DNA of 39,869 nucleotides, taken from Pricia sp. Lineage in GTDB: Bacteria; Bacteroidota; Bacteroidia; Flavobacteriales; Flavobacteriaceae. Shown here one piece after another: positions 9,774 to 36,729 of the stretch; positions within the stretch are counted from its first letter, which is position 1, and each line of letters opens with the position of its first letter. A model generated the notes under the pieces. It was not told the origin of the DNA, did not search any database, and worked only from the letters and a program-made list of their open reading frames with translations. Where the stretch lies: NCBI GenBank assembly GCA_024635875.1, contig JAGXIC010000202.1:1-39869 (forward strand), in the 5' to 3' direction. A program made the position numbers and the translations under genes.

Positions 9774-10022
9774 ATGGTGATGACCAAGGAAAATATAGTT
9801 GAAAAGGTAGATGATTTTCTAATCGATGATTTCGAAGTAGAAGAAGAAGCGTTAGTGCCCGAAGCCAATCTAAAGGATGCCCTAGATCTCGACAGTCTTG
9901 ACTTTGTGGACCTCGTGGTCGCAGTCGAGAGTAATTTCAGTGTCAAGCTGACCGGTGAGGATTTTGTGAACATCCACACTCTCCAGAATTTCTACGACCT
10001 TATCGAAAGAAAGCTGGGGTGA
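9774..10022 (+). CDS. Acyl carrier protein
   Basis: 82 aa, acidic, phosphopantetheine site LDLDSLDFVDLV. Confidence 0.92.
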   Translation: MVMTKENIVEKVDDFLIDDFEVEEEALVPEANLKDALDLDSLDFVDLVVAVESNFSVKLTGEDFVNIHTLQNFYDLIERKLG

Positions 10023-10045
10023 CCCTTTCTTACAAAATCCAAGAT

Positions 10046-10975
10046 ATGGCCACCGAATGGGAAGGAAAATCAAGAGGCACCCTTTTGGGGTACCAGATTT
10101 ACATTTTATTTCTCCAGAATTTTGGAATCGGCGCGGCTTACCTTTTACTGCGTGTCGTTATCGTGTACTACATCTTGTTTTCCCCAAGAAGCAATCGTGA
10201 TACGTATACCTATTTCCGAAAAAGGCATGGCTTTTCTAAGGGAAAAAGTATTTTGAACATTTATAGAAGCTATTACACGTTCGGACAGACCCTGACCGAT
10301 AAGGTGGCCATAGCAACGGGGCTACGCGATAAATTTACCTACACACACAACGGCATCGAGCATATCGACGATCTCCTTCAAAAAAACCAAGGTGGCATTT
10401 TGATCAGTGGCCATGTCGGTAATTTTGAGATTTCGCATTACTTTTTGGAAGACCGCTACCACATTGCCAATATCAGCATGGTGACAACGCACGCAGAGCA
10501 TCAGGATATCAAGGAGTACATGGAGCGTATTTCGGCGAAATCACATTTAAAATTCATTGTGGTCAAAGACGACATGTCGCATATCTTTGAAATCCATAAG
10601 GCAATCGATGACGGCGGATTGGTGGTTTTTACCGGCGACCGCTATATGCCCGGTTCCAAAACCCTTACCGAGAATTTTTTGGGCAAAAAAGCCAATTTCC
10701 CCATGGGGCCCTATCTCTTGGCCGCACGATTGAACCTGCCGGTATTGTTCGTGTATTTCATGAAAGGCCCGAAACGCCATTACGACCTCTACGCCCAGAC
10801 TGCCGAATTTAAGGCACGGGACGCTCAGGGCCTGCTAAAAGAATATACCGAAAGTATGGAGCGCATCCTGAAAAAATATCCTTTACAATGGTTCAATTAT
10901 TTTGATTTCTGGAAAGATAGGAAAAGTACGAAGTATGAGGTTAGAGGTACAAGGGATAAAAAGGTTGATGTTTAA
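10046..10975 (+). CDS. LpxL/HtrB-like lysophospholipid/lipid A acyltransferase family protein
   Basis: GHVGNFE (H-x4-E) motif, FTGDRYMPGS, PMGPYLLAARLNLPVLFVYF. An alternative GTG start at 10019 overlaps the ACP stop. Confidence 0.85.
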   Translation: MATEWEGKSRGTLLGYQIYILFLQNFGIGAAYLLLRVVIVYYILFSPRSNRDTYTYFRKRHGFSKGKSILNIYRSYYTFGQTLTDKVAIATGLRDKFTYTHNGIEHIDDLLQKNQGGILISGHVGNFEISHYFLEDRYHIANISMVTTHAEHQDIKEYMERISAKSHLKFIVVKDDMSHIFEIHKAIDDGGLVVFTGDRYMPGSKTLTENFLGKKANFPMGPYLLAARLNLPVLFVYFMKGPKRHYDLYAQTAEFKARDAQGLLKEYTESMERILKKYPLQWFNYFDFWKDRKSTKYEVRGTRDKKVDV

Positions 10976-11095: not shown

Positions 11096-12025
11096 ATGAA
11101 AGAAGTTTTAGTCATACACTATTCCCAAACCGGACAACTGACGAGCATTTTAGAAAATATGGTCGGCACCCTATCAGGCGATAGCATTAATATCTCCCAC
11201 TACAAAATCGTTCCAGATCCCCAATATGGCTTCCCTTGGAAACCGACGCAGTTTTATGATGTCTTTCCGGAAACCTTTTTGCAGATTCCTGCCGGCTTCC
11301 ATCCTCCTCAACCGGACATTCTTGATAAAAAATATGATTTGGTGATTTTGGGATATCAGGTTTGGTATCTGACCCCGTCCATTCCCATAACATCCTTTTT
11401 AAAATCAGATTTTGCTGGGAAGCTCTTGAAAGACACTCCCGTTGTATCCGTTGTTGCCTGCCGTAACATGTGGATTCAGGCACAAGAAAAAATAAAACGT
11501 TTATTGGTTTCCGTGGATGCCAAACTGGTCGGACATATTGCCTTGGTTGACCGCCATATCAACCATATCAGCGTGATAACGATAGAACATTGGATGCTAT
11601 CGGGCCGCAAAGACCGCTATTTAAGCCTGTTCCCGAAACCGGGGATTTCGGATAGCGATATTATAAATGCCTCGAAATTCGGACAGCCTATAAAGGATGC
11701 ATTACTAGCGGCCGATTTTACCAAACTTCAGGAAAACCTTTTGCAAATGGATGCCGTACGTGTAAATCCACTTTTGGTACGAACCGACGAAAGGGGCAAC
11801 ATACTGTTCTCGAAATGGGCGAATCTCATCATTAAGAAAGGGGCCCCGGGCGGCCCTAAACGACTAAAATGGCTACGTTTATTCAAATTTTACCTGAAAT
11901 TCGCCATTTGGTTCATAGCACCTATAGTTTTTGTGGTATTTTTGATCACTTATTTCCCCATGACCAAAAAGCGGAACAGGGAGCGGAAATACTACGCTTC
12001 TGTAGCTTTAAAGGATACACAATGA
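11096..12025 (+). CDS. darA: Dialkylresorcinol condensing enzyme, DarA-like
   Basis: N-terminal VLVIHYSQTGQLT flavodoxin-like start, C-terminal TM segment, adjacency to a DarB-like KSIII with ATGA overlap. Confidence 0.85.
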   Translation: MKEVLVIHYSQTGQLTSILENMVGTLSGDSINISHYKIVPDPQYGFPWKPTQFYDVFPETFLQIPAGFHPPQPDILDKKYDLVILGYQVWYLTPSIPITSFLKSDFAGKLLKDTPVVSVVACRNMWIQAQEKIKRLLVSVDAKLVGHIALVDRHINHISVITIEHWMLSGRKDRYLSLFPKPGISDSDIINASKFGQPIKDALLAADFTKLQENLLQMDAVRVNPLLVRTDERGNILFSKWANLIIKKGAPGGPKRLKWLRLFKFYLKFAIWFIAPIVFVVFLITYFPMTKKRNRERKYYASVALKDTQ

Positions 12026-13155
12026 AGGACGTTTACATCACACGAATTGCCAAATTCTTGCCCAACAATCCTATTGATAATGATCAGATGGAGGAAAAAC
12101 TGGGTATTATCGACGGCAAGGCCTCCAAGGCCAGACGCCTGGTGCTACGCAATAACAAGATAAAGACCCGCTATTACGCCCTCGATGAAAATGGCAAGGT
12201 GACCCATAACAATGCCCAATTGACCGCTGCTGCAGTTGAAGCCCTTTGCGATGACGAATTTACGCCCCAAGATATCGAACTGTTGTCTTGTGGCACTTCA
12301 AGTCCCGATCAGATATTGCCCTCGCACGCCAGTATGGTACACGGCTTTTTGAAGAATCGGAATATGGAGATCAACTCGCCCTCCGGTGCCTGTTGCTCGG
12401 GAATGAACGCCCTGAAATACGGCTATCTTTCGGTAAAGGCCGGTCAGACTGAAAATGCTGCCTGTACCGGTAGTGAACGCACCTCTTCATGGATGAAAGC
12501 CGATGTTTTCGAAAACGAAGTTGCCCATCTGAAAAAAGTGGAAGAAAATCCGATTTTGTCCTTCAATAAGGAGTTTTTACGCTGGATGCTCTCCGATGGC
12601 GCAGGTGCCGTACTTTTGGAAGGTGCCCCCAACGGTCCACATCCCCTTAAAATAGAATGGATCGACGGCTATTCGTACGCCCACGAATTGGAAACCTGTA
12701 TGTACGCCGGGGCTGAAAAGGAAGCCGACGGTCACCTGACGCCGTGGAGCGAAATTCCCGCAGAACAATGGGGCAAAAAATCGCTCTTTGCCATGAAACA
12801 GGATACTCGACTTTTAGGGGACCATATCTTGAAAAAAGGAGTTGATAGCTTAAAGCAGGTCTACAAAAAACACAATATTAAATCCGATGATGTAGATTAT
12901 TATTTGCCGCATATATCATCTTATTACTTCAAACAAGGTTTATACGATGAAATGGCAGCACAAGGTGTAGAGATGCCTTGGGACAAATGGTTCTTGAACC
13001 TTGAACACATTGGCAATATTGGTGCCGCATCGATTTATGTAATGCTGGAAGAGCTGGTGGCATCCGGAAAACTGAAAAAGGGCGATAAAATTCTATTTCA
13101 TGTGCCCGAAAGTGCGCGTTTCTCCTATATGTACGCCTACCTTAGCGTTTGTTGA
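12022..13155 (+). CDS. darB: Beta-ketoacyl-ACP synthase III, DarB-like
   Basis: FabH-like SGACCSGMNALKYG (Cys), YYLPHISS (His), EHIGNIGAASI (Asn). ATG at 12022 overlaps the darA stop; the longer ORF from 11869 is an in-frame extension through darA. Confidence 0.88.
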   Translation: MKDVYITRIAKFLPNNPIDNDQMEEKLGIIDGKASKARRLVLRNNKIKTRYYALDENGKVTHNNAQLTAAAVEALCDDEFTPQDIELLSCGTSSPDQILPSHASMVHGFLKNRNMEINSPSGACCSGMNALKYGYLSVKAGQTENAACTGSERTSSWMKADVFENEVAHLKKVEENPILSFNKEFLRWMLSDGAGAVLLEGAPNGPHPLKIEWIDGYSYAHELETCMYAGAEKEADGHLTPWSEIPAEQWGKKSLFAMKQDTRLLGDHILKKGVDSLKQVYKKHNIKSDDVDYYLPHISSYYFKQGLYDEMAAQGVEMPWDKWFLNLEHIGNIGAASIYVMLEELVASGKLKKGDKILFHVPESARFSYMYAYLSVC

Positions 13156-13592
13156 TGAGCGGTTCGGAACCACATATTGCCGTTGGAGAACTGCTCTTAA
13201 GCCTAATACCACAGAAAAATCCCTTTGTCATGGTAGATACCTTGGCAGAATATACTGAAAAACGGATAGTATCCCATTTTTTGGTGCAGGCCGATAACGT
13301 ATTGGTCACCGAGAACCACTTTTCTGCACCGGGCCTCATTGAGAATATGGCTCAGACCATTGCGTTGCATATGGGCTACAAATATTACCTATTAAAACTA
13401 CCGGCCCCGACGGGCTATATTGGCGCCATAAAAAAAGCTGAGATTTTACAACTGCCCAAAGTATCCGAAACCTTAACTACCACGGTTGATATTTTACATG
13501 ATATTATGGGGGTAACCTTGGTGCAGGCCAAAGTCGAGTGTAATGGCGCCTTGATGGCATCAAGTGAAATGAAAACGGCGTTGGCACAGTAA
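13155..13592 (+). CDS. Hotdog-fold 3-hydroxyacyl-ACP dehydratase-like protein
   Basis: LIPQKNPFVMVDTL, GLIENMAQTIALHMG, GYIGAIKKAEI; TGATG overlap with darB. Confidence 0.8.
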   Translation: MSGSEPHIAVGELLLSLIPQKNPFVMVDTLAEYTEKRIVSHFLVQADNVLVTENHFSAPGLIENMAQTIALHMGYKYYLLKLPAPTGYIGAIKKAEILQLPKVSETLTTTVDILHDIMGVTLVQAKVECNGALMASSEMKTALAQ

Positions 13593-13690
13593 GTTGACTT
13601 TACGCCGTGCAATAAGCACTTTACGCAAACACCAAAAAGAGACTTCCGAAAAACGTTTGGCAAATGGCGTTCGGCTCATACCCTTTGGAA

Positions 13691-14155
13691 ATGAAAAAAG
13701 CTAGATACGACATCAACATAAAAAACTTCCTACCGCATCGCGAACCGATGTTGATGGCTACCGTCACCCCTTATCTCGACGAAGATTCAGTCGTCACTCA
13801 TTTCGTGATAAAGGAAAATTGCATCTTTTTAAATTCTGCTGGACGCTTATCCGAAAGTGGACTCATAGAAAACGCCGCCCAGGCCAGTACGGCTATCGTT
13901 GGGCAAAGTTATTTTGATGATGACGATTTCGAAGGCGCCGGAAATTCCATTGTAGGCTATATCAGTGCCATAAAAAAAGCCGAAATACACGAATTGCCAA
14001 AGATTAACGAACTTTTGGTGACCAAGGCCCATTTGGTTTCCAGATACGATACGGGTAACATGAGTATATGTACCGTTATCTCCTCCACTTTTAGAAATGA
14101 TGATTTAATCGTAGATTGTACCTTTAATTTTCTGATTCACGAAGTAGAGAAGTAA
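13691..14155 (+). CDS. Second hotdog-fold dehydratase-like protein
   Basis: FLPHREPMLMATV, GLIENAAQAS, GYISAIKKAEIHELPKI; paralogous to the preceding ORF. Confidence 0.78.
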   Translation: MKKARYDINIKNFLPHREPMLMATVTPYLDEDSVVTHFVIKENCIFLNSAGRLSESGLIENAAQASTAIVGQSYFDDDDFEGAGNSIVGYISAIKKAEIHELPKINELLVTKAHLVSRYDTGNMSICTVISSTFRNDDLIVDCTFNFLIHEVEK

Positions 14156-14159
14156 TGAG

Positions 14160-14561
14160 ATGAAAAAGAAGGAAGTCCCGCAAGACAAGAGCCATCTTGA
14201 AAAGGCCAATATTAAAGATATGGTCTATGCCGTTGATGAAAATGGGGAATATACTGCCGAGCTCAGCACCGGATGGGAGCCCAAATCCATAGCGCTAGAC
14301 AATGCCATTCAAGAAATAGAGGAACGTACCGCAGCTGCAAAAGCACGTTTTTTCAACAACGAATCAAGTCCCATCGAATATTATATGGAACTGCATAAAA
14401 TGGATATCCCTATTTTGGCCAGCTATATGGGTCTTTGGCAATGGCGCGTAAAAAGGCATCTCAAACCATCCGTTTTTCGTAAACTTAGTGCGAAGACCCT
14501 TCAAAAATATGCCGACGTTTTTGAAATTTCGATCGGACAGTTAAAAGGTATCAATGAGTGA
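14160..14561 (+). CDS. Conserved small protein with XRE/HTH-like C-terminus
   Basis: 133 aa; MDIPILASYMGLWQWRVKRHLKPSVFRKLSAKTLQKYADVFEISIGQLKGI has a Cro/C1-like helix pattern. Confidence 0.65.
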   Translation: MKKKEVPQDKSHLEKANIKDMVYAVDENGEYTAELSTGWEPKSIALDNAIQEIEERTAAAKARFFNNESSPIEYYMELHKMDIPILASYMGLWQWRVKRHLKPSVFRKLSAKTLQKYADVFEISIGQLKGINE

Positions 14562-15561
14562 AACTTTAAAAATAGATTTCTCACACAAACAAGCGGCCCA
14601 CTGCGAAAACGGTGTAGTTTCAAACCTAATGCGGCACAACGGATTTGAAGTCAGCGAACCCATGGTCTTTGGCATCGGGTCAGGATTGTTATTCAGCTAC
14701 TTGCCCTTTATCAAAGTGAACTACGCCCCGGTCTTTACCTATCGCGTCTTGCCCGGCCTTGTCTTCAACCGCTTTGCCAAAAGGGTGGGTATCAAAGTAA
14801 AGCGTGAGAAATTCAGCAGTCCGAAAAAGGCAAAGGCACGTTTAGATGAAAACTTGAAAAACAATAATCCCGTTGGACTCCAGGTCGGAGTGTACAATTT
14901 AATTTATTTTCCCGACGAGTACCGCTTTCATTTCAACGCCCATAATATGGTGGTCTATGGAAAGAAAGACGGCCAATATCTTATTAGCGATCCAGTCATG
15001 GAAAGTGTGACCTCATTGACCGAAAGGCAATTGGAAAAAGTTCGTTTTGCGAAGGGGGCCTTTGCGCCAAAGGGGCATATTTACTATCCTACCGCCTTTC
15101 CCGAAAAATTGGAGCTCGAAAGTGCTATCGCCAAGGGCATCAAACAGACCTGCCGCGATATGACCGCGCCCGTACCGATCGTCGGGGTGAAAGCGATTCG
15201 CTGGGTGGCCAAAAACATTCGGAAATGGCCGAAAAAAATAGGAGCCAAAAAAACAAATCACTATCTGGGTCAAATCGTTCGTATGCAAGAAGAGATTGGA
15301 ACGGGTGGCGGTGGCTTCCGTTATATTTATGCGGCATTTTTGCTGGAAGCTGCTGATGAAATCCACAACGAAAAACTCAAGAAATTTTCCAAAGAAATGA
15401 CCGAAATCGGGGATTTATGGCGTGATTTTGCGCTGGACGCCTCCCGAATTTACAAAAACCGTAGTAGTGAAAGTGATGGCTATAATAAGATTGCCGATCA
15501 GTTGGTCGCAATTGCAAATCGGGAAGAAAATTTTTTTAAGCGATTGAAGAAAGCTATCTGA
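14554..15561 (+). CDS. BtrH N-terminal-domain protein (putative acyl-ACP acyltransferase, cysteine peptidase-like fold)
   Basis: AHCENGVVSNLMRHNGFEVSEPMVFGIGSGLLFSYLPF; FNAHNMVVYGKKDGQYLISDPV. Confidence 0.75.
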   Translation: MSETLKIDFSHKQAAHCENGVVSNLMRHNGFEVSEPMVFGIGSGLLFSYLPFIKVNYAPVFTYRVLPGLVFNRFAKRVGIKVKREKFSSPKKAKARLDENLKNNNPVGLQVGVYNLIYFPDEYRFHFNAHNMVVYGKKDGQYLISDPVMESVTSLTERQLEKVRFAKGAFAPKGHIYYPTAFPEKLELESAIAKGIKQTCRDMTAPVPIVGVKAIRWVAKNIRKWPKKIGAKKTNHYLGQIVRMQEEIGTGGGGFRYIYAAFLLEAADEIHNEKLKKFSKEMTEIGDLWRDFALDASRIYKNRSSESDGYNKIADQLVAIANREENFFKRLKKAI

Positions 15562-15597: not shown

Positions 15598-15699
15598 TGA
15601 AAATACGGATATTTGGAAATCAGTCCCTTAACCCCCCCTATTTGAAAGCAGTAACACTAAATATAAGCCTCCACTAATGAGTTGAAATTTAGGAACCCT

Positions 15700-16443
15700 A
15701 TGATTCAAATAACCCAACTCTCCAAAAAATATAAAGATGCCGAAGACTATTCGGTTCATAACCTGAACCTCAAAATTGAAGAAGGCGCGGTTTTTGGATT
15801 GCTAGGTCCCAACGGGGCCGGTAAAACGACCTTGATTTCCATGTTAAGTTCATTACTTAAGCCAACATCGGGTTCGTTCAGTATTGATGGTCTCAACTAC
15901 CGTGAAAACAAAAATAAATTGAAGCAACGTATCGGGATAGTGCCTCAAGAGTATGCGCTTTATCCATCTTTAACCGCATATGAAAATCTACAGTATTTTG
16001 GGAGCATGTATGGGTTAAAAGGTAATTTGCTTAAAAACAAAATTCTTGAACATATCGAAATCTTAGGTCTCTCAAAGTTCGCCCATATAAAAATCTCCAA
16101 CTTTTCCGGAGGCATGAAACGGCGTATCAACTTAATTGCCAGTATTTTGCACCGTCCTAAAGTTCTGTTTCTAGACGAGCCAACGGTAGGTGTCGATGTG
16201 CAGTCCAAAAATGTCATTATGGAATATTTGGGACAACTCAATACAGAAGGGACTACCATTTTATACACTTCCCATCATCTAAACGAAGCAGAACAGTTCT
16301 GCACCCGTGTCGCGATTATCGATTTAGGAACGATTGTTTGCCAAGGCGCACCCAAAACTTTGATTGCACAACAAGTGGGTGCCCAGAACCTTGAAGAAGT
16401 ATTTTTGGCACAAACAGGCAAAGCCCTAAGAGACCATGCATAA
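15700..16443 (+). CDS. ABC transporter ATP-binding protein
   Basis: Walker A GPNGAGKTT, signature FSGGMKRR, Walker B VLFLDEPT. ATG at 15700 preferred to the upstream TTG. Confidence 0.95.
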   Translation: MIQITQLSKKYKDAEDYSVHNLNLKIEEGAVFGLLGPNGAGKTTLISMLSSLLKPTSGSFSIDGLNYRENKNKLKQRIGIVPQEYALYPSLTAYENLQYFGSMYGLKGNLLKNKILEHIEILGLSKFAHIKISNFSGGMKRRINLIASILHRPKVLFLDEPTVGVDVQSKNVIMEYLGQLNTEGTTILYTSHHLNEAEQFCTRVAIIDLGTIVCQGAPKTLIAQQVGAQNLEEVFLAQTGKALRDHA

Positions 16444-17704
16444 ATTATGGGCCTCTACATACAAAGAGTTTTTACTGCTGACTCGGGATTTTGGCGGCTT
16501 GGCCATCCTTTTCTTGATGCCCTTGCTATTAGTGATTACCATAACCCTTGTCCAAAATGATACCTTCAAGACCTTGAAGGAAACAAAAATTCCCATTCTT
16601 TTAGTAGACAACGACCAAGGCGAGGTCTCAAAAAGCATCCTACAAAACCTTAAAAATTCGCCACTTTTTGAAGTCAATTCCCAATCCAGCGAAAAGTCGG
16701 TCAAAGAACTGGTGCTGACCGGTAAATATCAATTGGGCATCGTTATCCCGAAAAACCTATCCAAAGATTTAAATCTCAAAGTTGCTGAAAATGTCGAGGG
16801 CATTCTAGAAATATTTGGGGAGGAAGAGGAAAGTATACCCTTGGTAAAATCGAAACTAAAGCCTAAAGAAATCAGGCTCTATTTTGATCCGGCCACACAG
16901 TTTTCCTTCCGGAATTCGATTAAAAGTGGCATCGACCAAATGGTATCCAAAATCGAGACCCAGACCATCTACAAAGCTTTTCAGGAAGAGCTGACGGACG
17001 ACCCCTCCGAAGACATCTTCGACACGGAACCATTTATACTTTTTAAAGAAATAGTACCTTCGGACGGGGAAAAGGAAATCATACCAAACGCCACCCAGCA
17101 CAACATTCCCGCTTGGACGCTTTTTGCCATTTTCTTTATCATCTTGCCGCTTTCAATCAACATGGTAAAAGAAAAAAATCAAGGCACCTTTGTCCGGTTA
17201 CGGACCCATCCGGTTGCATATGCGACCTTTCTTGGTGGAAAAACAATTGTCTTTTTAGGGGTGGCCTTGATTCAGTTTGCTTTGATGCTGCTGATAGGCA
17301 TTTATCTTTTTCCATGGATCGGCCTTCCCAAGTTGGATGTTTCGGGCAGACTACCCCTACTATTTTTCGTAGCTTCTTTTGCCGGCCTGGCAGCCGTAGG
17401 TCTCGGCCTGTTATTGGGCACTGTTGCAAAGACACAGGAACAATCCGCTCCCTTTGGAGCCACCTTCGTTGTTATTCTTGCGGCATTGGGCGGGGTTTGG
17501 GTACCGGTTTTCGCCATGCCGAAATTTATGCAGGTGCTTTCGAATATTTCCCCCATGAACTGGGGTCTCAACGCTTTTTACGATGTTTTCTTGCGGAATG
17601 TTGGGATACTGGAACTGCTACCCGAAATTGCCTTGTTATTTTTGTTTTTTGTGGTTACAGTGGTGATTTCCGTAGTGTATAATGAGCGGAAGAACGCGGT
17701 GTGA
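16436..17704 (+). CDS. ABC-2 type transporter permease
   Basis: N-terminal TM plus large extracytoplasmic domain plus C-terminal TM cluster; overlaps the ATPase gene. Confidence 0.92.
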   Translation: MHKLWASTYKEFLLLTRDFGGLAILFLMPLLLVITITLVQNDTFKTLKETKIPILLVDNDQGEVSKSILQNLKNSPLFEVNSQSSEKSVKELVLTGKYQLGIVIPKNLSKDLNLKVAENVEGILEIFGEEEESIPLVKSKLKPKEIRLYFDPATQFSFRNSIKSGIDQMVSKIETQTIYKAFQEELTDDPSEDIFDTEPFILFKEIVPSDGEKEIIPNATQHNIPAWTLFAIFFIILPLSINMVKEKNQGTFVRLRTHPVAYATFLGGKTIVFLGVALIQFALMLLIGIYLFPWIGLPKLDVSGRLPLLFFVASFAGLAAVGLGLLLGTVAKTQEQSAPFGATFVVILAALGGVWVPVFAMPKFMQVLSNISPMNWGLNAFYDVFLRNVGILELLPEIALLFLFFVVTVVISVVYNERKNAV

Positions 17705-20793: not shown

Positions 20794-21411
20794 TTGGACA
20801 AAATTTCTCACATATCAGCGTACTGCCATGTTAAGAAAAACGCCATCTCACTTAACGAGAACATCCTTTTCGAAAATACTGCCGGCGACTTTGCCGGTTA
20901 CATGAAATCGGCCTATTCCCATTTTAAGATAGAGTATCCCAAGTTTTTTAAGATGGACCGATTGAGCAAACTGGCCTTTTTGGCAGCGGAAGTACTTTTG
21001 GGACATCCGAATACATCCAAAGAAAATCGAAATATGGCCGTTGTACTTTCAAACAGTGCCTCCAGTTTGGATACCGACCGAAAATATCAGGAATCCATCT
21101 CCGATGCACACAATTTTTACCCGAGTCCCGCCGTTTTCGTCTATACTTTGCCCAATATCTGTATCGGCGAAATTAGCATACGGCATAAACTGCGTTCTGA
21201 GAATAGTTTTTTTATCTTTGATGCGTTTAGTCCGGGGTTTTTAAAAGATTATTCCGAAAGTTTGTTGCAGACGGATAATACGGACGAGGTACTCTGCGGA
21301 TGGGCCGACGTCGATGAAGACAGCTACGAGGCTTTTTTATATCTCGTATCCCCGATTGGAAACTATTCACATGACGAACCACAATTAACCAAATTATACG
21401 CAACCCCATGA
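20794..21411 (+). CDS. Half-size beta-ketoacyl synthase N-terminal-like protein (ApeC / chain-length-factor-like)
   Basis: 205 aa, ketosynthase N-terminal lobe only (AVVLSNSASSLDTDRKYQ, VFVYTLPNICIGEISIRH); TTG start; ATGA overlap with the next ACP. Confidence 0.72.
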   Translation: MDKISHISAYCHVKKNAISLNENILFENTAGDFAGYMKSAYSHFKIEYPKFFKMDRLSKLAFLAAEVLLGHPNTSKENRNMAVVLSNSASSLDTDRKYQESISDAHNFYPSPAVFVYTLPNICIGEISIRHKLRSENSFFIFDAFSPGFLKDYSESLLQTDNTDEVLCGWADVDEDSYEAFLYLVSPIGNYSHDEPQLTKLYATP

Positions 21412-21665
21412 GTGAGTTGAAACAAGAACTAAAAGAAAAAATCATAGAGCAACTGAACCTTGAGGACGTTGCCATCGAGGAAATCAAGGATACCGATCCG
21501 CTTTTCGGCGAAGGTCTGGGCCTGGATTCTATCGACGCTTTGGAACTGATCGTAATGCTCGATAAAGACTACGGTATCAAATTGGCAGATCCCAAGCAGG
21601 GCAAATCGATTTTCGAATCGGTCGAGACCATGGCCGTTTATATTAAGGAACATCGCAGTCGATAG
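21408..21665 (+). CDS. Acyl carrier protein
   Basis: 85 aa; GLGLDSIDALELIVML phosphopantetheine site. Confidence 0.93.
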   Translation: MSELKQELKEKIIEQLNLEDVAIEEIKDTDPLFGEGLGLDSIDALELIVMLDKDYGIKLADPKQGKSIFESVETMAVYIKEHRSR

Positions 21666-21790: not shown

Positions 21791-22999
21791 ATGATAAAAG
21801 GCGTAGCAATAACGGGCATGGGTATCATTTCCGCCATTGGCAACAATGTAGCGGAGAATTATGCGTCGCTTATTGCGGGTAAAAAGGGAATTTCAAGGAT
21901 TTCACAGATTGATACCGTACATAAGGATGATATCATGGTCGGCGAAATCGCCGATACCAATGCCGTTCTGGAAAAGCAACTTGGATTTGCCGAAAACGAG
22001 GTTTCACGCACCGTTTTAATAGGATGTATCGCAGCGAATGAGGCTATTTTGAATGCTGGAATTACCGATATCAACGACGCCAGAACCGGAATGATTTCCG
22101 GCACCACCGTCGGTGGTATGGACAAATCCGAGCAATATTTTTATGATTATTTCGACCGCCCCGAGGTTAGGCAGCACATCACCGGGCTTCATGCCGGCGA
22201 TTCCACTAAAAAGATTGCAGCTCATTTAGGACTCGAAGAAAGCTTTGTTACCACCATCAGCACTGCCTGTTCCTCTGCGGCCAACGCTATCATGCTGGGT
22301 GCGCGGATGATCAAATCGGGACAATTGGACCGCGCCATTGTCGGGGGCACCGATTGCCTTTCAAAATTCACGATCAACGGCTTCAAGACCTTATTGATTT
22401 TATCCGACACGTACAGCTCCCCTTTCGATGAAGAACGCAAAGGGCTGAATTTAGGGGAAGCCGCCGCCTACCTCGTCTTGGAATCGGATGCGCTTGTTCA
22501 AAAAGAGGCTAAAAAAGTGTTGGGCTACGTCACAGGTTACGGTAACGCCAACGATGCCTATCACCAAACAGCCTCCTCGGAACATGGAGACGGGGCAGTA
22601 TTGGCCATGGGAAAAGCCCTTAAAACAGCGGGCTTGCAACCTTCCGATATCGACTATGTCAATGCCCATGGCACCGCAACACCGAACAACGACCTTTCCG
22701 AAGGACGGGCCTTGATTCGATTGTTTGGAAAAAACGTACCAGAATTCAGTTCAACGAAAGCCTCGACAGGCCATACCTTAGCGGCTGCGGGGGGGGTAGA
22801 AGCCGTATATTCTGTACTGGCACTACAAAACGATACTATTTTTCCTAATTTGAATTATAAAACACCTATGACGGAATTTGACCTTGAACCGATTACCGAG
22901 GTCACCAAAAAACCGTTACGTCATGTGTTATCGAATTCGTTCGGGTTTGGGGGGAACTGTTCGACGTTGATATTTTCTAAGGATAAATCATTAGCTTAA
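21791..22999 (+). CDS. Beta-ketoacyl-ACP synthase II (FabF-type)
   Basis: STACSSAANAI, NAHGTATPNND, STKASTGHTLAAAGG, SNSFGFGGNCSTLIF. Confidence 0.94.
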   Translation: MIKGVAITGMGIISAIGNNVAENYASLIAGKKGISRISQIDTVHKDDIMVGEIADTNAVLEKQLGFAENEVSRTVLIGCIAANEAILNAGITDINDARTGMISGTTVGGMDKSEQYFYDYFDRPEVRQHITGLHAGDSTKKIAAHLGLEESFVTTISTACSSAANAIMLGARMIKSGQLDRAIVGGTDCLSKFTINGFKTLLILSDTYSSPFDEERKGLNLGEAAAYLVLESDALVQKEAKKVLGYVTGYGNANDAYHQTASSEHGDGAVLAMGKALKTAGLQPSDIDYVNAHGTATPNNDLSEGRALIRLFGKNVPEFSSTKASTGHTLAAAGGVEAVYSVLALQNDTIFPNLNYKTPMTEFDLEPITEVTKKPLRHVLSNSFGFGGNCSTLIFSKDKSLA

Positions 23000-23001
23000 A
23001 A

Positions 23002-24069
23002 ATGCCGGTCTACATAAACAGCATAGGTTCCGTTTCCGCCCAAAGGACGTTCGACAATTCGATTTTTTTAGAAGAAATCGTTCGCTATACCGATACCGTA
23101 TTGGAAATTATCACTCCAAATTACAAAGATTATATACCTCCGGCTGCGGCACGTAGAATGGCCAAAGGCATCAAAATGAGCACCGTCAGTGCCAAGACCG
23201 CCATGACCGAGGCCGGCATGGAAGAAGACGAAATCGATGCCATTATCGTAGGCACTGGATTGGGTTGTATCGGCGATTCCGAAAAATTCGTCAGCGATAT
23301 TCTTGATAACGACGAGCAGTTTTTGACGCCTACACGCTTTATACAATCCTCGCACAATACCGTTGCGGGGCAGATTGCCTTGGGTATGGGCTGCATGGGG
23401 CATAATTTCACCTACGTTCATTCCGCAATTTCTTTCGAATCGGCGGTATTGGACGCCAAAATGCTATTGGAAAACGGAGAGGCAAAACATATTCTGGTCG
23501 GTGGAGTCGATGAATTGGTCGACCATCATGTAAACACCCATCGATTGATCGGGCATATCAAACAAGAACCGGTCGAGACCATGTCGGTCTTAAAATCCGG
23601 AACCAAAGGGGCAATATTTTCGGAGGGGGCACATTTTTTTACGCTTTCCAGTGAAAAACGGCCCTCCTGTTACGCCGAACTTTTGGCGGTCAAGACTTTA
23701 AATACCTTAGGGGAAAATCAAGTTTCCGGAAAAACGCGATCCTTTTTATCTGAAAACGGAATAGAGCCAGATGCCGTAGATGTTATTATTCTGGGATATA
23801 ATGGAGATGCGGAATTTGACGGTTACTACGATACGCTCGCTAACGCCTTGTTCAAAGACGCGGTTCAAGTATACTTTAAACATTTATCGGGTGAATTTGA
23901 TACGGCCTCCGGTTTTGGGTTTTGGTTGGGGAACAAAATATTAAAAGAACAGACCATTCCCGATGCAGTTCGGATGAATTCCGTCGCTACGAATTCTCCA
24001 AAAACCGTACTGATCTACAACCAATATCGCGGCGAAAACCATAGTCTTACCTTGCTTCGAAAATGCTGA
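23002..24069 (+). CDS. Ketosynthase-like protein with degenerate active site (chain length factor-like)
   Basis: KS-like fold motifs (IIVGTGLGCIGDSEKF, AGQIALGMGC), but the nucleophile region reads YVHSAISFESA and the histidine regions LGYNGDAEFD and HLSGEFDTASGFG. Confidence 0.82.
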   Translation: MPVYINSIGSVSAQRTFDNSIFLEEIVRYTDTVLEIITPNYKDYIPPAAARRMAKGIKMSTVSAKTAMTEAGMEEDEIDAIIVGTGLGCIGDSEKFVSDILDNDEQFLTPTRFIQSSHNTVAGQIALGMGCMGHNFTYVHSAISFESAVLDAKMLLENGEAKHILVGGVDELVDHHVNTHRLIGHIKQEPVETMSVLKSGTKGAIFSEGAHFFTLSSEKRPSCYAELLAVKTLNTLGENQVSGKTRSFLSENGIEPDAVDVIILGYNGDAEFDGYYDTLANALFKDAVQVYFKHLSGEFDTASGFGFWLGNKILKEQTIPDAVRMNSVATNSPKTVLIYNQYRGENHSLTLLRKC

Positions 24070-27057: not shown

Positions 27058-28227
27058 ATGCAACAGCTGAAATGCTGTGTGCTTATCCCTACCTATAACA
27101 ACGCAGGTACTTTGGCGCGAGTTTTGGATGGTGTTCTAGCTATGACCAAAAATATCGTTGTGGTCAATGACGGCGCTACCGACAGCACAGAGAGCATCTT
27201 AAAAGCGTATCCCAAAATCCATCAAATCCATCTTCCTCTTAACAAAGGGAAAGGCAAGGCTTTAAAAATCGGATTCAAAGAAGGCCTAGAACTCGGCTAT
27301 GATTTTGCAATAACCATAGATTCCGACGGACAACATTTCCCTGAGGATATTCCCGTTTTTTTAGAAGCTTTGCAAAAAGAGGACACCAAGAACGTACTCT
27401 ACATCGGATCTCGCAATATGAAGCAGTACGATGTGCCCGGATCCAGTAGTTTTGGCAACAAATTCTCGAATTTTTGGTTCTGGTTCGAAACGGGTACATG
27501 GCTTACCGACACGCAATGCGGCTACCGGCTCTATCCGCTCAAGGAAATCGAAAAATTAAATTTGTATACGCCAAAATTCGAGTTCGAAATCGAAGTCATC
27601 GTCAAGGCCGCATGGAACGGTACTTTGGTCAAAAATATTCCCGTAAGAATCTCTTACGATGAAGCGGAAAGGGTATCCCATTTTAGAAAAGGACCCGATT
27701 TTGCACGTATCAGCGTAGTGAACACCATTTTCGTCTTCGTCACGCTTTTCTATATTAAACCGCGTGATTTTTTTCGGAAAATCAAGAAAAAAGGGGTTGC
27801 AAAATTCTTTTCCGAAGATGTCTTGGGAAGTAAAGATTCCCCTCGAAAAAAAGCTTTTTCCATAGCATTGGGTCTTTTTATAGGGTTGAGTCCGTTCTGG
27901 GGTCTACACACGCTATTGGTACTCGGGCTGGCCTTTATATTCAAGTTGAACAAGCCGATAGCTTTCGCGTTTTCGAACATCAGCCTTCCACCGTTTATTC
28001 CATTTGTGCTGTATTTGAGCATTCAGACGGGCGTTTGGATCACAGGGGAAGAAAATTTCTTTGCCTTGGATAGTATAATGGATAATCTTGTCGCCTTAAA
28101 GGGGCTGAAAACCTATCTTATAGGAAGTTTTACGTTAGCAACACTAGTTTCGGTCATTTCAGGCCTTATAAGCTATTTTACCCTGACCCAAATGGCCAAA
28201 CGAAAAATCGCCGTGGAAAATGGATAG
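27058..28227 (+). CDS. Glycosyltransferase family 2 fused to a DUF2062 membrane domain
   Basis: VLIPTYNNAGTLARVLDG, VVNDGATDST, TIDSDGQHFPED. C-terminal RKKAFSIALGLFIGLSPFWGLHTLLVLGLAFIF matches DUF2062. A TTG start at 26992 is the alternative. Confidence 0.88.
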   Translation: MQQLKCCVLIPTYNNAGTLARVLDGVLAMTKNIVVVNDGATDSTESILKAYPKIHQIHLPLNKGKGKALKIGFKEGLELGYDFAITIDSDGQHFPEDIPVFLEALQKEDTKNVLYIGSRNMKQYDVPGSSSFGNKFSNFWFWFETGTWLTDTQCGYRLYPLKEIEKLNLYTPKFEFEIEVIVKAAWNGTLVKNIPVRISYDEAERVSHFRKGPDFARISVVNTIFVFVTLFYIKPRDFFRKIKKKGVAKFFSEDVLGSKDSPRKKAFSIALGLFIGLSPFWGLHTLLVLGLAFIFKLNKPIAFAFSNISLPPFIPFVLYLSIQTGVWITGEENFFALDSIMDNLVALKGLKTYLIGSFTLATLVSVISGLISYFTLTQMAKRKIAVENG

Positions 28228-31200
28228 TTTCTTTTTTCGTGCCTACGTTGCCATTGCCAAAAAACGATGGTTGGCGCTTCTGTGCCTGTTGGGCATCGTC
28301 GGCGTACTTCTCGGCATAACCAGACAGATTGAATTCGATGATGACATTTCGTCCTTAATTCCCGCCAACGAGGAAACCCAGCAGACATTGCAAGTCCTAA
28401 AATCCATCGCCTTTACGGATAAAATCGTTGTCAACATTCGAAAAGGCGAGACCGGTAACGTTGATGACCTGACCCGATACGCCACCGAATTTTTGGATAG
28501 CGTGGAATCAAAACAAGGCGAGTTCATCAAAAACATCCAAGGCAGGGTCGCTTCAGACGATGTACCCAAGACCCTTGATCTGGTCTATGAAAATCTTCCA
28601 CTCTTTTTGGAGGCTTCCGATTATGAAGCCATTCAAAATAGACTATCGCAAGACAGCATTGAAACGATTACCGCCGAAAACTATCGGACCTTGATTTCCC
28701 CTACTGGTATCATAGCGAAAAAAAGTATTGTCCGAGATCCGTTGGGACTATCTTTTATAGCCCTCAAAAAACTAAGGCAACTAGGTTTTGGGGAAGGCTT
28801 CAAACTCCAAAACGGATTTCTACTCAATGAACAGGAAGAAAATATCCTTCTTTTTATCACTCCGACATTCGGTTCCGGCGAAACGAATAAAAACCTGCCC
28901 TTTTCAGATGCGCTCTATGCCGTTCAGGATGCCTTGAACGCCAAATACGGCGACAAAGTAAGCAGCGAATATTTTGGGGCGGCCTTAAGTGCCGTTTCCA
29001 ATGCAAAACAGATCGAACGGGATATAAAATTTACGGTGGGCATTGCGCTGACCTTACTCATTGTTCTGCTTATCTTGTTCTATCGCAATCTGGTCCTTCC
29101 GCTGATACTGTTCGCCCCGACAGTTTTCGGAGGCTTGTTGGCCATCGCTTTCCTGTGCCTTTTACGCGTTGAAATTTCGGCCCTTTCCCTAGGAATCGGT
29201 GCCGTAATGCTCGGCGTTACCTTGGATTACGGGTTGCACATACTGACCCACATCCGCAACGGAGAGGAAACAAAAAGCCTGTTCAAGGAAGTTGCGCCCT
29301 CGGTCTTGATTAGCAGCCTTACCACGGCCAGTGCTTTTCTTTGCCTATTGTTTCTGGAATCCCAAGCCCTTCAAGATTTAGGCATATTCGCGGCCATCAG
29401 CGTATTGGGCGCTTCCGTTTTTGCACTTCTTTTTATCCCACAGGTTTATAAAGGCAAAAAAGCACTGACTGCCACAAAAACCATACTGGATCGATGGGCT
29501 GATCTAGAGTGGCATAAGAGTAAGTGGGCAATTGCAGCATTGTCCATCCTATTTATAATCAGTATTTTAAGGTACGGAAAAGTTGTTTTCGACCAAGATA
29601 TTTCCAAGCTCAACTACGAGACCCAAGCGCTACTCGATGCCCGGGACCGACTTGAAAAATTGACGGACATCGGTTCGAAATCTCTTTACCTGGCCACCTA
29701 CGGGGATAATCTTCAGGAAGTTTTACAGCGAAACGATAGCCTTTTCCTGGTATTGGAACAATTGAAAGAAACGGGTGAAATTGTTAGTTTCGGCTCGATA
29801 GGCACCTTGGTAAAGTCAAACCGTACCCAACAACAAAAAATCGAGGCCTGGCGGCTGTTTTGGGATATCCCGAAAATCGACTCGCTCAAAAATAATCTGA
29901 TTGCTAGCGGATCTGAACTGGGCTTCAAACCAACTGCCTTTTCCCAATTCTATGCCCTCTTGGATGCTGATTTTAAACCTATGCCACTTTCGGAAATCGG
30001 GGCGATACAATCATTTTCTATGGATGATTATGTGGTGACGGACGAAAACGGCACAACAATAACATCATTAATCAAGGTCAATGATGCCGACGCTGCCACT
30101 GTCCGAAAACAATTTAAAGATGTTCCCAATACACTGCTTATCGATCGGCAAAACGTCAACGAGACCTTTTTGGGTAACCTCAAAAACGATTTCAACCGGC
30201 TGTTGGGCTATTCGCTGATCGTAGTGCTATTGATTTTGTACCTATTTTATCGAAGTTTTACCTTAACGTTGATTACCGGTATTCCAATTTTTGTGACCTG
30301 GTTTCTGACGGTCGGTATTATGGGTCTTCTACATATCGAGTTCAACATCTTCAATATCATCATCTGCAGTTTTATATTCGGCCTGGGCGTTGATTATAGC
30401 ATTTTCATGACCAATGGCCTGCTGACCGAGTACCGCACGGGCGAAAAGACCCTCAGCAACCATAAAACATCTATAATACTCTCCGTAATTACCACTATTG
30501 CAGGTGTCGGGGTATTGGTCTTTGCCAAGCATCCGGTGTTGTATACGGTTTCCGTGGTCTCGCTTATCGGTATTGGGTGTGCGCTATTCGTCGCTTTCAC
30601 ACTGCAGCCCCTGTTGTTCCGGCTTTTTTTAGGAGATACCCGTAAACGACCTATTCAACCCAAGATACTGATCCATTCCCTCTTATCGTTTGCCTATTTT
30701 AATTTGGGAGGAGTGCTATTTTCCATCTACTCGTGGATGGTCTTGAAACTAAATCCGAAAGCTCGTTCAAAAAAACAATTGGGACTGCATAAAGCGGCAT
30801 CGAAGTTCATGAAGTCGGTGTTGTATACCAATCCCTTTGTATCCAAAAAAGTAATAAATGACCATAACGAAACCTTTGAAAAGCCGGCGATGATGATTGC
30901 CAACCATACGTCATTTTTAGATATTTTGTCCATGGGCATGCTACATCCTAAGTGTATCTATCTCGTTAAAGATCATGTTTACAACTCCAAAACCGTAGGG
31001 TATGCTGCTAGACTACATGGTGCCTATCCCGTTTCTGGGGGCATTGAGGGCGGCGAGGCCTTCCTGAAACAGAAATTGGCACAAGGTTTTTCAATCATTG
31101 CGTTTCCGGAAGGCACCCGATCGGCGACAAACAAGATAGGCCGCTTCCACAAAGGCGCCTTCTATTTGGCAGAACAGCTCAGTCTCGACATTCTGCCCGT

Positions 31201-31900
31201 TATGATCCATGGCGGTTCGGAAGTCTCGCCCAAGGGGACTTTTATCATCCGCAATGGCAGTATAACCATCGAAATATTGTCGAGAATCACCCCAGATGAT
31301 TCGCGGTTCTCAACAGGCTATTCCAAACGACCTAAAGAAATCGGCCAGTATTTCAGGTCCGAATTTAGGAGGCTGCGCGACCAGATTGAGGATCCAACCT
31401 ATTGGCACAAACTGATTTTAGAGAATTATCGCCATAAAGGGGATGCTATCTACAAAGCGGTCAAAACAGACCTAAAAGATAACGCGAAAACCTATAAAAA
31501 GATTCTGGAAAACCTTGGTGAAACAGATACTATTATCCATTTATCCCAAGACTTCGGACAGTTAGATCTGCTGTTGGCCTTGGATTCTGTTGACCGTAGA
31601 ATCGTCACTTATATAGAGAATCACGAGGCTAGGACGATTTTGAAAAACAATTATTTGACGCACAATTATAGTAAGCTTATTGTTGTGAATTCTGTTAAAG
31701 AGGCGTTAGAAAATTCAGCTAAAGTATTAATCATCGATTTGGAAGGTTTTGAGGTGAATAGTATCGACAGGGAGGCGTTTGATTTTATAGCTATCGTTCT
31801 TTTGAAAAGAGGTCGTCAGACTCAAATTCTCAAGGGTTTCGTCACTTCCCTCGAAAATGATAACTTTATCCTGTTTAAGAGAGAAATTCATAAAGAATGA
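28220..31900 (+). CDS. MMPL/RND-family transporter fused to a PlsC-like 1-acylglycerol-3-phosphate acyltransferase and an additional C-terminal domain
   Basis: 1226 aa: two RND-like TM blocks (LDYGLHILTHIR; FGLGVDYSIFMTNG), NHTSFLDI (H-x4-D) and FPEGTRS PlsC motifs, then a roughly 170 aa Rossmann-like tail. Confidence 0.9.
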   Translation: MDSFFFRAYVAIAKKRWLALLCLLGIVGVLLGITRQIEFDDDISSLIPANEETQQTLQVLKSIAFTDKIVVNIRKGETGNVDDLTRYATEFLDSVESKQGEFIKNIQGRVASDDVPKTLDLVYENLPLFLEASDYEAIQNRLSQDSIETITAENYRTLISPTGIIAKKSIVRDPLGLSFIALKKLRQLGFGEGFKLQNGFLLNEQEENILLFITPTFGSGETNKNLPFSDALYAVQDALNAKYGDKVSSEYFGAALSAVSNAKQIERDIKFTVGIALTLLIVLLILFYRNLVLPLILFAPTVFGGLLAIAFLCLLRVEISALSLGIGAVMLGVTLDYGLHILTHIRNGEETKSLFKEVAPSVLISSLTTASAFLCLLFLESQALQDLGIFAAISVLGASVFALLFIPQVYKGKKALTATKTILDRWADLEWHKSKWAIAALSILFIISILRYGKVVFDQDISKLNYETQALLDARDRLEKLTDIGSKSLYLATYGDNLQEVLQRNDSLFLVLEQLKETGEIVSFGSIGTLVKSNRTQQQKIEAWRLFWDIPKIDSLKNNLIASGSELGFKPTAFSQFYALLDADFKPMPLSEIGAIQSFSMDDYVVTDENGTTITSLIKVNDADAATVRKQFKDVPNTLLIDRQNVNETFLGNLKNDFNRLLGYSLIVVLLILYLFYRSFTLTLITGIPIFVTWFLTVGIMGLLHIEFNIFNIIICSFIFGLGVDYSIFMTNGLLTEYRTGEKTLSNHKTSIILSVITTIAGVGVLVFAKHPVLYTVSVVSLIGIGCALFVAFTLQPLLFRLFLGDTRKRPIQPKILIHSLLSFAYFNLGGVLFSIYSWMVLKLNPKARSKKQLGLHKAASKFMKSVLYTNPFVSKKVINDHNETFEKPAMMIANHTSFLDILSMGMLHPKCIYLVKDHVYNSKTVGYAARLHGAYPVSGGIEGGEAFLKQKLAQGFSIIAFPEGTRSATNKIGRFHKGAFYLAEQLSLDILPVMIHGGSEVSPKGTFIIRNGSITIEILSRITPDDSRFSTGYSKRPKEIGQYFRSEFRRLRDQIEDPTYWHKLILENYRHKGDAIYKAVKTDLKDNAKTYKKILENLGETDTIIHLSQDFGQLDLLLALDSVDRRIVTYIENHEARTILKNNYLTHNYSKLIVVNSVKEALENSAKVLIIDLEGFEVNSIDREAFDFIAIVLLKRGRQTQILKGFVTSLENDNFILFKREIHKE

Positions 31901-33557: not shown

Positions 33558-35291
33558 ATGAGTTTATTCAATCGATCTGGCCTTCTAAAAATACTGCAAT
33601 TCCCTTTATCGATAGTGACTGGAGTAGGCTCGTGCGCTTGGCTTCAAAAAATACAGCTATTTGGAGTATTGCTTTTGCTCCTAACCTCATGCGGTGTAAA
33701 AAAATCATTGCACGACGTACCGAATGTAGGCCAATACGAATCCGAAATTCCGGAACGGACCCAACTGAACGACTCCACTTTTGTTCTGGACCACAATTTC
33801 CTGACCAAAAACCGACAAGGCCAATGGGAGCTGTATGTGGATGGAAATCCTTATGAACTCGGGCTCAAGATAGGCAGCCTTACCCAAGAACTCTTTCACC
33901 ACCAAGAACGGATTTTTGTCGATAAAATCGATTCCCTGGTACCCTCCAAAGGCAAACAAAAGCTGCTCCGAAAATTTCTCGCCTGGTTTAATCGCAAAAT
34001 GTACCGCAATATCGACGAGCAGTACAAGGCCGAAATTTACGGAATGGCTCAGTACGCCTCAAAAGATTTCGACTATATCGCCAAACCCTATCAAAGGGTC
34101 ATGTACTTTCACGGGGCGCACGATATTGGGCATGCCCTGCAAGATTTGGCCTTGGTAGGCTGTTCGAGCTTTGCGGCCTGGGGCGACCATACCAAGGACG
34201 GAAAAATGATCATCGGTCGTAATTTCGATTTTTATGTGGGCGACGAATTCGCGAAAAATAAGATTATCGCATTCGTTGCACCCGATGAAGGGCATAAGTT
34301 CATGTCCGTAACTTGGGGCGGGTTTATAGGAGTGTTATCGGGGATGAACGACCAAGGCCTTACGGTAAGCATCAACGCGGGAAAATCTGATTTTCCGATA
34401 GTTGCCAAAACTCCCATTTCGTTGGTCACCCGCGAGATTTTGCAATACGCTTCTACCATTGCCGAAGCCATCGCCATCGCCAAAAAAAGGAAAGTATTCG
34501 TTTCGGAATCCATATTCGTTGGAAGTGCTAAGGACAAGCGGGCCGCTGTAATCGAAGTCTCGCCGAATAATTTCGGAGTGTACGAGGTCGAGAACTCGGA
34601 TCAACTAATCTGTTCCAATCATTTTCAGAGCGCGGCCTACGCCCATGACAAAAAAAATCGAAAGCATATTCTTGAAAGCCATTCGCAATACCGTTACAAG
34701 CGGATGGAAGAATTGTTGGATGAGCAATCCAAAGTGACTCCCGAAATCGTCGTTGACATCCTCCGCGATAAAAAAGGCCTTGATGACAAGCGCATTGGCT
34801 ATGGCAACGAAAAGGCCCTGAACCAATTGTTGGCGCATCACGGTATCGTTTTCCAACCAGAAGACCTGAAAGTATGGGTCTCCAGTAATCCGTATCAATT
34901 GGGGGAGTTCGTGGGCTATGACCTCAACGAAATTTTCAACGAAACGGATGGTGGGGACGGGGCGAAATCAATGTCCCTACCAAAATTGAACATTGCCAAA
35001 GACCCCTTTTTAAATACGTTGGCCTATCGACACTATCAGCGTTACCGAAAGCTCCGAAACCAAATTACAATGGCGATTTCTTCGGATGGAAAAGTAGATA
35101 AAAAGACGCTAGAAGAATTCATACTGCTTAATCCCGATTTTTGGGAAGCCTACTACTTGGTCGGAAAGTACAATTATGAAAAAGGATATTATCATTTGGC
35201 CCTGAAGGCTTTTTTGGAAGCGGAGACCAAAGAAATCACCACCGTCCCGGACAGGAAAAAAATAGAACGCTACATTCGCAAATTAAAATGA
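33558..35291 (+). CDS. C45-family (acyl-CoA:6-APA acyltransferase-like, Ntn hydrolase) lipoprotein with C-terminal TPR-like segment
   Basis: Lipobox LLLLLTSC; candidate nucleophile LVGCSSFAAWGDHTKDGKMIIGRNFDFYVG; C-terminal NPDFWEAYYLVGKYNYEKGYYHLALKAFLEA. Confidence 0.85.
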   Translation: MSLFNRSGLLKILQFPLSIVTGVGSCAWLQKIQLFGVLLLLLTSCGVKKSLHDVPNVGQYESEIPERTQLNDSTFVLDHNFLTKNRQGQWELYVDGNPYELGLKIGSLTQELFHHQERIFVDKIDSLVPSKGKQKLLRKFLAWFNRKMYRNIDEQYKAEIYGMAQYASKDFDYIAKPYQRVMYFHGAHDIGHALQDLALVGCSSFAAWGDHTKDGKMIIGRNFDFYVGDEFAKNKIIAFVAPDEGHKFMSVTWGGFIGVLSGMNDQGLTVSINAGKSDFPIVAKTPISLVTREILQYASTIAEAIAIAKKRKVFVSESIFVGSAKDKRAAVIEVSPNNFGVYEVENSDQLICSNHFQSAAYAHDKKNRKHILESHSQYRYKRMEELLDEQSKVTPEIVVDILRDKKGLDDKRIGYGNEKALNQLLAHHGIVFQPEDLKVWVSSNPYQLGEFVGYDLNEIFNETDGGDGAKSMSLPKLNIAKDPFLNTLAYRHYQRYRKLRNQITMAISSDGKVDKKTLEEFILLNPDFWEAYYLVGKYNYEKGYYHLALKAFLEAETKEITTVPDRKKIERYIRKLK

Positions 35292-35439: not shown

Positions 35440-36729
35440 ATGATTCCAAAAATCGAAAAAGCATCCTTACCAGAAATCAAGACTTTCCAGGAAGAAAAAC
35501 TGAGGGAGCTTTTCGAATATTTAAATACGAATTCCACTTACTATCGACGATTGTTTCGAAAACACAAAATAAGTGCGGATGCCATCCGCACTTTAGAAGA
35601 TCTGAAGCGCATTCCGACCACTTCAAAGGAAAATCTTCAGAAGTTCAACGATGATTTTTTGTGTGTGCCGAAAAAAAAAATAATCGATTTTGTGACCACA
35701 TCGGGAACGCTCGGTGAGCCTGTGACCATTGGTTTGACAGATGCCGACCTTGACCGGCTGGCTTATAACGAGGCGATTTCGTTTGCCTGTGCCGGCGTAA
35801 CCGACGAAGACGTTTTACAATTAACCACAACCATCGACCGACGTTTTATGGCAGGGCTTGCCTATTTTTTAGGCGCGAGAAAATTGGGGGCTGGAATTAT
35901 TCGCGTCGGGGCGGGCATCCCTGAACTGCAATGGGACAGCATTAAAAAATTCAGTCCTTCCTATTTGATAGTGGTGCCATCCTTCCTATTGAAATTGATA
36001 GAGTACGCCGAACAACATGATATCGATGTGGACGCTTCAGGGATAAAAGGGGCGATTTGCATCGGCGAATCGCTGCGCGATCAAGATTTCTCGCTTAACG
36101 TACTGGCCAATAAGATAAAATCAGCTTGGGACATTGAACTATACTCCACTTACGCCTCCACCGAAATGAGCACCGCTTTTACCGAGTGTTCGGAACAGCA
36201 AGGCGGACACCAACATCCGGAATTGATTATCACGGAAATTTTGGACGAAGATGAGAATCCTGTTCCCGAGGGCACAGAAGGCGAACTGGTGATCACGACT
36301 TTGGGAGTAGAGGCCATGCCTCTTTTACGCTTTAAGACCGGAGACATGGTCGTGGCCCATAGCTCGCCCTGCCGTTGCGGAAGAAACGGCTTGCGGCTAG
36401 GTCCCGTAGTAGGCCGTAAAAAACAGATGATCAAATATAAAGGTACTACGCTCTATCCGCCGGCCATGCACAATGCGCTCAACGATTTTCCGGAAGTGGA
36501 CAGTTTTGTCATCGAAATCTATCACAATAGCATCGGTACAGATGAAATTCGAATTAAAATCGCTGCAAAAATACCTTCCGAAGAACTTTTGCAAACGATA
36601 AAAGATCACTTCCGTTCAAAACTACGTGTAACTCCCAGTATCGAATTTGTTCCCAAAGAAGAAGTGCAAAAACTGCGGATGTCTAAGTTAGGGCGGAAAC
36701 CAGTTAGTGTTATTGATAAGCGCTCTTAA
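35440..36729 (+). CDS. Phenylacetate-CoA ligase (PaaK)-like adenylate-forming enzyme
   Basis: VTTSGTLGEPVTIGLT P-loop-like motif, LYSTYASTEM, FKTGDMVVAHSSPCRCGRNGLRLG, GRKKQMIKYKGTTLYPPAM. Confidence 0.9.
   Translation: MIPKIEKASLPEIKTFQEEKLRELFEYLNTNSTYYRRLFRKHKISADAIRTLEDLKRIPTTSKENLQKFNDDFLCVPKKKIIDFVTTSGTLGEPVTIGLTDADLDRLAYNEAISFACAGVTDEDVLQLTTTIDRRFMAGLAYFLGARKLGAGIIRVGAGIPELQWDSIKKFSPSYLIVVPSFLLKLIEYAEQHDIDVDASGIKGAICIGESLRDQDFSLNVLANKIKSAWDIELYSTYASTEMSTAFTECSEQQGGHQHPELIITEILDEDENPVPEGTEGELVITTLGVEAMPLLRFKTGDMVVAHSSPCRCGRNGLRLGPVVGRKKQMIKYKGTTLYPPAMHNALNDFPEVDSFVIEIYHNSIGTDEIRIKIAAKIPSEELLQTIKDHFRSKLRVTPSIEFVPKEEVQKLRMSKLGRKPVSVIDKRS

Follow-up and report, generated by a model that had tools for sequence, protein, structure and literature searches.

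The protein DarH, encoded in a flexirubin gene cluster within the window (the whole stretch of Pricia sp. DNA analysed here, 39,869 nucleotides long), is likely to form the ester of flexirubin, acting as a carrier-protein-dependent cysteine acyltransferase, a reading based on its predicted fold, its co-occurrence with the dialkylresorcinol (DAR) genes and the elimination of rival candidates. Flexirubins are yellow-orange chemotaxonomic pigments of the Bacteroidota. It has been shown with genes of C. pinensis that DAR is made by darA and darB alone, so that DAR itself does not require DarH, and in the same work a 'ligase-like enzyme', FlxW, was suggested for the ester step of the C. pinensis flexirubin (PMC3992019). 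The DAR-only cluster of P. chlororaphis, according to its description, consists of darABC and two regulators, and a BtrH gene is not mentioned (PMC6403133). In a literature search that covered few subscription journals, no paper was found that assigns the reaction of DarH or that assigns, by experiment, the flexirubin ester step. An earlier note on this DNA had named DarH as a candidate for the ester bond, which is now supported indirectly by the fold, the invariant Cys-His-Asp residues, the co-occurrence and the elimination of rivals; the same note knew of no assigned enzyme for the step, for which FlxW had, however, already been suggested. The two-way elimination of other candidates and the fold comparison are what the present analysis adds, the gene itself being an ordinary member of an already named family with a suggested activity, and not a new one.

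The darH gene is an open frame of 335 codons that contains AHCENGVVSNLMRHNG and SEPMVFGIGSGL. Both domains of its product score above the Pfam gathering thresholds and far beyond chance, BtrH_N (PF14399), which spans residues 16-147, with 173.5 bits (cut-off 29.7) and DUF4872 (PF16169), which spans residues 159-331, with 209.2 bits (cut-off 28). The protein also matches the full NCBIfam model NF053550 (DarH_acyl, "BtrH-related acyltransferase DarH") with 512 bits against a cut-off of 300, lies in the same dar neighbourhood as the family and shows no difference from it, and it is the single DUF4872 protein in the window's own genome. DUF4872 proteins not adjacent to dar genes reach 120-190 bits on this model, below the cut-off. 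The frame, its motifs, Pfam and NF053550 thus bear out the placing of a BtrH N-terminal-type protein among dar genes; its position directly downstream of DarA/DarB, as the earlier note had it, has to be corrected, since three genes intervene and darH starts about 1.4 kb past darB, overlapping darG by 8 bases. The surrounding cluster is intact, with about 29 genes on one strand, and is confirmed as a flexirubin cluster by the matches of DarB, DarG and FlxY in the window, all above their NCBIfam cut-offs (Table 1). The darA product has no match in Pfam or NCBIfam, and a scan for promoters and terminators gave results at chance level only. For DarG, a fold search returned nothing below E 0.001; its C-terminal half weakly resembles an XRE-type helix-turn-helix fold, which would be an odd partner for an acyltransferase, and DarG may be either a regulator or an adaptor.

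Table 1. Genes and predicted catalytic codons of the flexirubin cluster, in positions of the window
Feature	Position	Strand	Basis or remark
LpxL-like acyltransferase (rival ester former)	10019..10975	+	PF03279
darA	11096..12025	+	context given in the earlier note, place before darB, co-conservation
darB, dialkylresorcinol ketosynthase	12019..13155	+	NF053539, 650 bits (cut-off 550)
FabZ-like gene	13149-13592		between darB and darH; scores below cut-off
163-aa protein	13664..14155	+	no family match; missing from 12 APE-only clusters
darG, small protein of the DAR-specific module	14160..14561	+	NF053545, 203 bits (cut-off 170)
darH, subject gene	14554..15561	+	BtrH_N + DUF4872 acyltransferase, 335 aa
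Cys17 codon (HCENG), predicted nucleophile	14602..14604	+	in every full-length homologue read
His130 codon (FNAHN), predicted general base	14941..14943	+	invariant, 72/72
Asp146 codon (SDP), predicted third triad residue	14989..14991	+	invariant, 72/72
ABC transporter ATPase, DAR-specific module	15682..16443	+	Pfam
ABC-2 permease, DAR-specific module	16436..17704	+	Pfam
Acyl carrier protein, proposed to carry the polyene acyl donor	21408..21665	+	PP-binding
Polyene ketosynthase	21791..22999	+	Pfam
Putative partner ketosynthase (chain-length-factor-like)	23002..24069	+	Pfam
MMPL exporter fused to acyltransferase (rival)	28220..31900	+	Pfam
C45 autoproteolytic acyltransferase/hydrolase (rival)	33558..35291	+	PF03417, NF040521
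flxY, acyl-CoA ligase, polyene starter activation	35440..36729	+	NF053551, 726 bits

An AlphaFold2 model of DarH, built with 72 homologues (pLDDT 89.5, pTM 0.88), was compared with structures in the PDB by Foldseek, and the top matches were AziU3, CtaG and CcbD (E about 1e-7 to 1e-10), with TM scores of 0.64-0.69 for the predicted model along almost the entire protein. The predicted model thereby shares the two-part fold of carrier-protein-dependent cysteine acyltransferases of the CcbD/CtaG/BtrH kind, and points to acyl transfer from a carrier protein; the earlier note had tied its proposal to a BtrH- or cysteine-transferase-like fold, and this is the kind of fold that the model displays over its full length. 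A search of the PDB by sequence gave no convincing relative. The residues Cys17, His130 and Asp146 are retained in all full-length DarH sequences read and in a divergent DUF4872 protein from another genome (G158); at 8 loci HCENG is encoded in frame upstream of a late ATG. Mutants of CtaG named in PDB titles (C11A, H128A and D144N) parallel C17, H130 and D146 of DarH, with nearly equal spacing by numbering.

The distribution of DarH was followed in two sets of genomes. Among 198 Bacteroidota genomes, all 12 that have DarB also carry a DUF4872 protein, and one further genome (G158) has the divergent protein mentioned above, which falls below the DarH cut-off. In 181 Flavobacteriaceae genomes, DarH scores above the cut-off in 32, and DarB is found in exactly these 32 genomes (above its cut-off in 31, the DarB of G232 being cut by a contig end), an association with a Fisher p of about 3e-36 that is uncorrected for kinship. 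By a quick parsimony method, the state of having DAR genes plus DarH changes 8 times on the tree of the C45 protein, at least 4 of these on well-supported branches. DarH was present at 79 of 80 dar loci, all from Bacteroidota, and at the remaining one the contig ends within DarG. Conservation of the operon was not accepted by itself as evidence for DarH, the LpxL-like gene being about equally constant. In one genome (G219) some 52 kb separate the DarA/B/G genes from DarH, which is on the opposite strand, and the MMPL, C45 and ABC genes are found in other parts of the genome; in another (G017) the DarA-DarB and DarG-DarH pairs are on different contigs. That DarH is kept after being unlinked from darAB argues against mere hitch-hiking. 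The flexirubin genes of G219 are spread over at least 4 places of one chromosome (L130, L131, L132), so that nature itself provides a test of functional coupling in this genome. Across the genomes compared, DarG and the ABC transporter are distributed just as DarH is; the profile alone thus cannot tell esterification from another DAR-linked step, and part of the argument for esterification rests on the fold.

Two contrasting gene sets allow the candidates of the cluster to be separated. The 12 genomes with an aryl polyene (APE)-only cluster, that is, with the C45 gene and without DarH, comprise 10 Flavobacteriaceae, in which DarB is absent genome-wide, and two members (G372 and G428) of the family of the genome G099, in which it is absent within the cluster. 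All 12 clusters retain the LpxL-like, MMPL-acyltransferase, C45, ketosynthase, dehydratase and export genes, and all 12 are without DarA, DarB, the 163-aa gene, DarG, DarH and the ABC pair. G099, known from its genes alone, shows the reverse: DarA-DarB-DarG-DarH-ABC stand beside an acyl carrier protein, ketosynthases, an aromatic amino acid (tyrosine-type) lyase and FlxY, and no homologue was found genome-wide of the LpxL-like protein (E 1e-10), the MMPL-acyltransferase (E 1e-10), the C45 protein (E 1e-20) or the glycosyltransferase (E 1e-40). The acyl carrier protein gene is retained both in the APE-only clusters and in G099, and two alpha/beta hydrolases near the dar/polyene genes of G099 are further possible actors. 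DarH is the sole acyltransferase-type gene of the cluster that tracks DAR plus polyene in both directions. DAR is made without DarH, and the APE-only clusters lack it as well; its most likely place of action is therefore the joining of the two halves.

Transfer of acyl groups from ACP to hydroxyls is the general activity of LpxL-type enzymes, and the LpxL-like gene adjoins an ACP gene and darA, so that this protein, or the MMPL-fused O-acyltransferase, might be thought to form the ester from acyl-ACP; this is improbable given that both genes are retained in clusters devoid of dar genes and are missing from G099, and the proposed role of ApeD and ApeJ, acyltransferases of E. coli APE clusters, is to link the polyene to a lipid anchor (PMC8253772). 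A somewhat better, though still unlikely, contender is the C45 (AAT-like) protein, with DarH doing something else: C45 enzymes are acyltransferases or hydrolases, the gene occurs in all 32 DarH-positive Flavobacteriaceae genomes and, to judge from gene order, it is probably FlxW, the protein that the literature suggests for this step (PMC3992019). The equation with FlxW nevertheless comes from gene order, the C45 gene persists in the 12 APE-only genomes without dar genes, and it is missing from G099 in spite of the DarA/B/G/H and polyene genes there.

Two other readings concern DarH itself. Its N-terminal domain is papain-like, the Azoarcus DarE protein is annotated as a 'BtrH-like peptidase', which implies a protease (PMC3949708), and the ABC-2 transporter genes downstream share its DAR-specific distribution, all of which would suit a papain/C39-like protease or hydrolase that serves the transporter in processing or proofreading. 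The full-length fold matches are, however, carrier-protein acyltransferases, whereas C39 peptidase domains and the C39 exporter PCAT1 match the model in part only (TM 0.34 for PCAT1); no full-length similarity to C39 peptidase-transporters was found, and the matches in a viral fold library were papain-like and covered the protein in part only. With DarH and the ABC genes also separated in G219 and G017, such a role is very improbable. Just as improbable is that DarH, though an acyltransferase, serves the DAR branch with a different acceptor (such as a membrane anchor or a second hydroxyl) or a different donor: co-occurrence marks the branch and not the exact bond, and CcbD accepts many acyl groups (PMC12945683), but a different enzyme would then be required for the known ester, and G099 has no other acyltransferase of the cluster types.

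Genes related to parts of this system occur elsewhere. A second Bacteroidota group of BtrH_N/DUF4872 proteins (L117:6318-7322, L133:9858-10847, L134:9615-10598, L128 and L129) falls below the DarH cut-off and lies away from dar genes, the G158 member being next to NAD-salvage-type genes; the motif reads GQHCETTATG in four and GEHCETTATG in L129, with the cysteine kept. Acinetobacter plasmids (45 records) encode a BtrH/DUF4872 protein with about 28% identity to DarH (L110:7971-8942); in L110 its gene has a TetR regulator on one side and two PaaI thioesterases on the other, with a cytochrome P450 nearby. Searches for DarB on plasmids returned proteins from Bacteroides, Prevotella, Phocaeicola, Pseudoalteromonas and Streptomyces, and DarA and BtrH annotations were absent from the three records examined; plasmids of Bacteroides and Prevotella (L109, L112) carry a lone StlD/DarB-type ketosynthase beside an HTH or TetR regulator, with no DarA or DarH annotation. 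A 616-aa frame with a DarB-like part is found apart from the flexirubin cluster in G182 (L122:7421-9268), and also in G199 and in G215, the last without DarH. In the dar operon of Paenimyroides (L084, L104), a second DarA-DarB pair separates the ABC ATPase gene from the permease gene, and in Maribacter litopenaei (L034) the darA, ABC permease, ketosynthase and methyltransferase genes are in pieces, by decay or sequencing error.

In the reaction proposed for DarH as ester former, the finished aryl polyene, held as a thioester on its acyl carrier protein, would be passed to Cys17 to give an acyl-enzyme, which would then be attacked by a phenolic hydroxyl of the DarA/DarB dialkylresorcinol, activated by His130/Asp146, to release the ester; the order would be ping-pong, and the adjacent ABC transporter may export the product. 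Such an order has been reported for CcbD, in which the acyl group moves from the carrier-protein thioester to the catalytic cysteine and on to an amine, with a wide range of acyl groups tolerated (PMC12945683). CcbD/LmbD of lincosamide synthetase resemble DarH in the whole-length fold and the catalytic cysteine, and take their donor from a carrier protein, but they are 12-14% identical to it, form amides and have a Cys-His-Glu triad where that of DarH ends in Asp. CtaG of closthioamide biosynthesis, for which hydroxybenzoyl transfer between carrier proteins has been proposed (PMC6772006), shares the whole-length fold and a parallel triad and has an aromatic proposed donor, yet its identity to DarH is 11-14% and its product bond is an amide. 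BtrH of butirosin biosynthesis, likened to DarH by description and not by sequence, has the BtrH_N domain and is an ACP-dependent acyltransferase, but makes an amide on an aminoglycoside. The documented reactions of these relatives are thus amide-forming and not ester-forming, which counts against the ester role. Closer in context is Azoarcus sp. BH72, for which darA, darB, darD, darE ('BtrH-like peptidase') and darF (ABC ATPase) have been listed and a DAR ester pigment has been predicted from MS fragmentation (PMC3949708); its darE (azo0290), likened to darH by description and position, sits between darB-darD and the ABC gene in a system predicted to make a DAR-polyene ester, and differs in being betaproteobacterial and annotated as a peptidase. 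The distribution data point to a single gene for the esterification of polyene and dialkylresorcinol, a step for which the papers searched offer no more than a guess (FlxW). If this is true, the CcbD/CtaG/BtrH kind gains a former of phenol esters, which extends its known chemistry and could be put to use in joining carrier-bound acyl chains to phenols. It seems fairly probable that DarH is the phenol-acceptor, ester-forming enzyme of the CcbD/CtaG/BtrH type, and that it is dedicated to joining two type II polyketide-like products, both in flexirubins and in the related proteobacterial DAR-polyene pigments.
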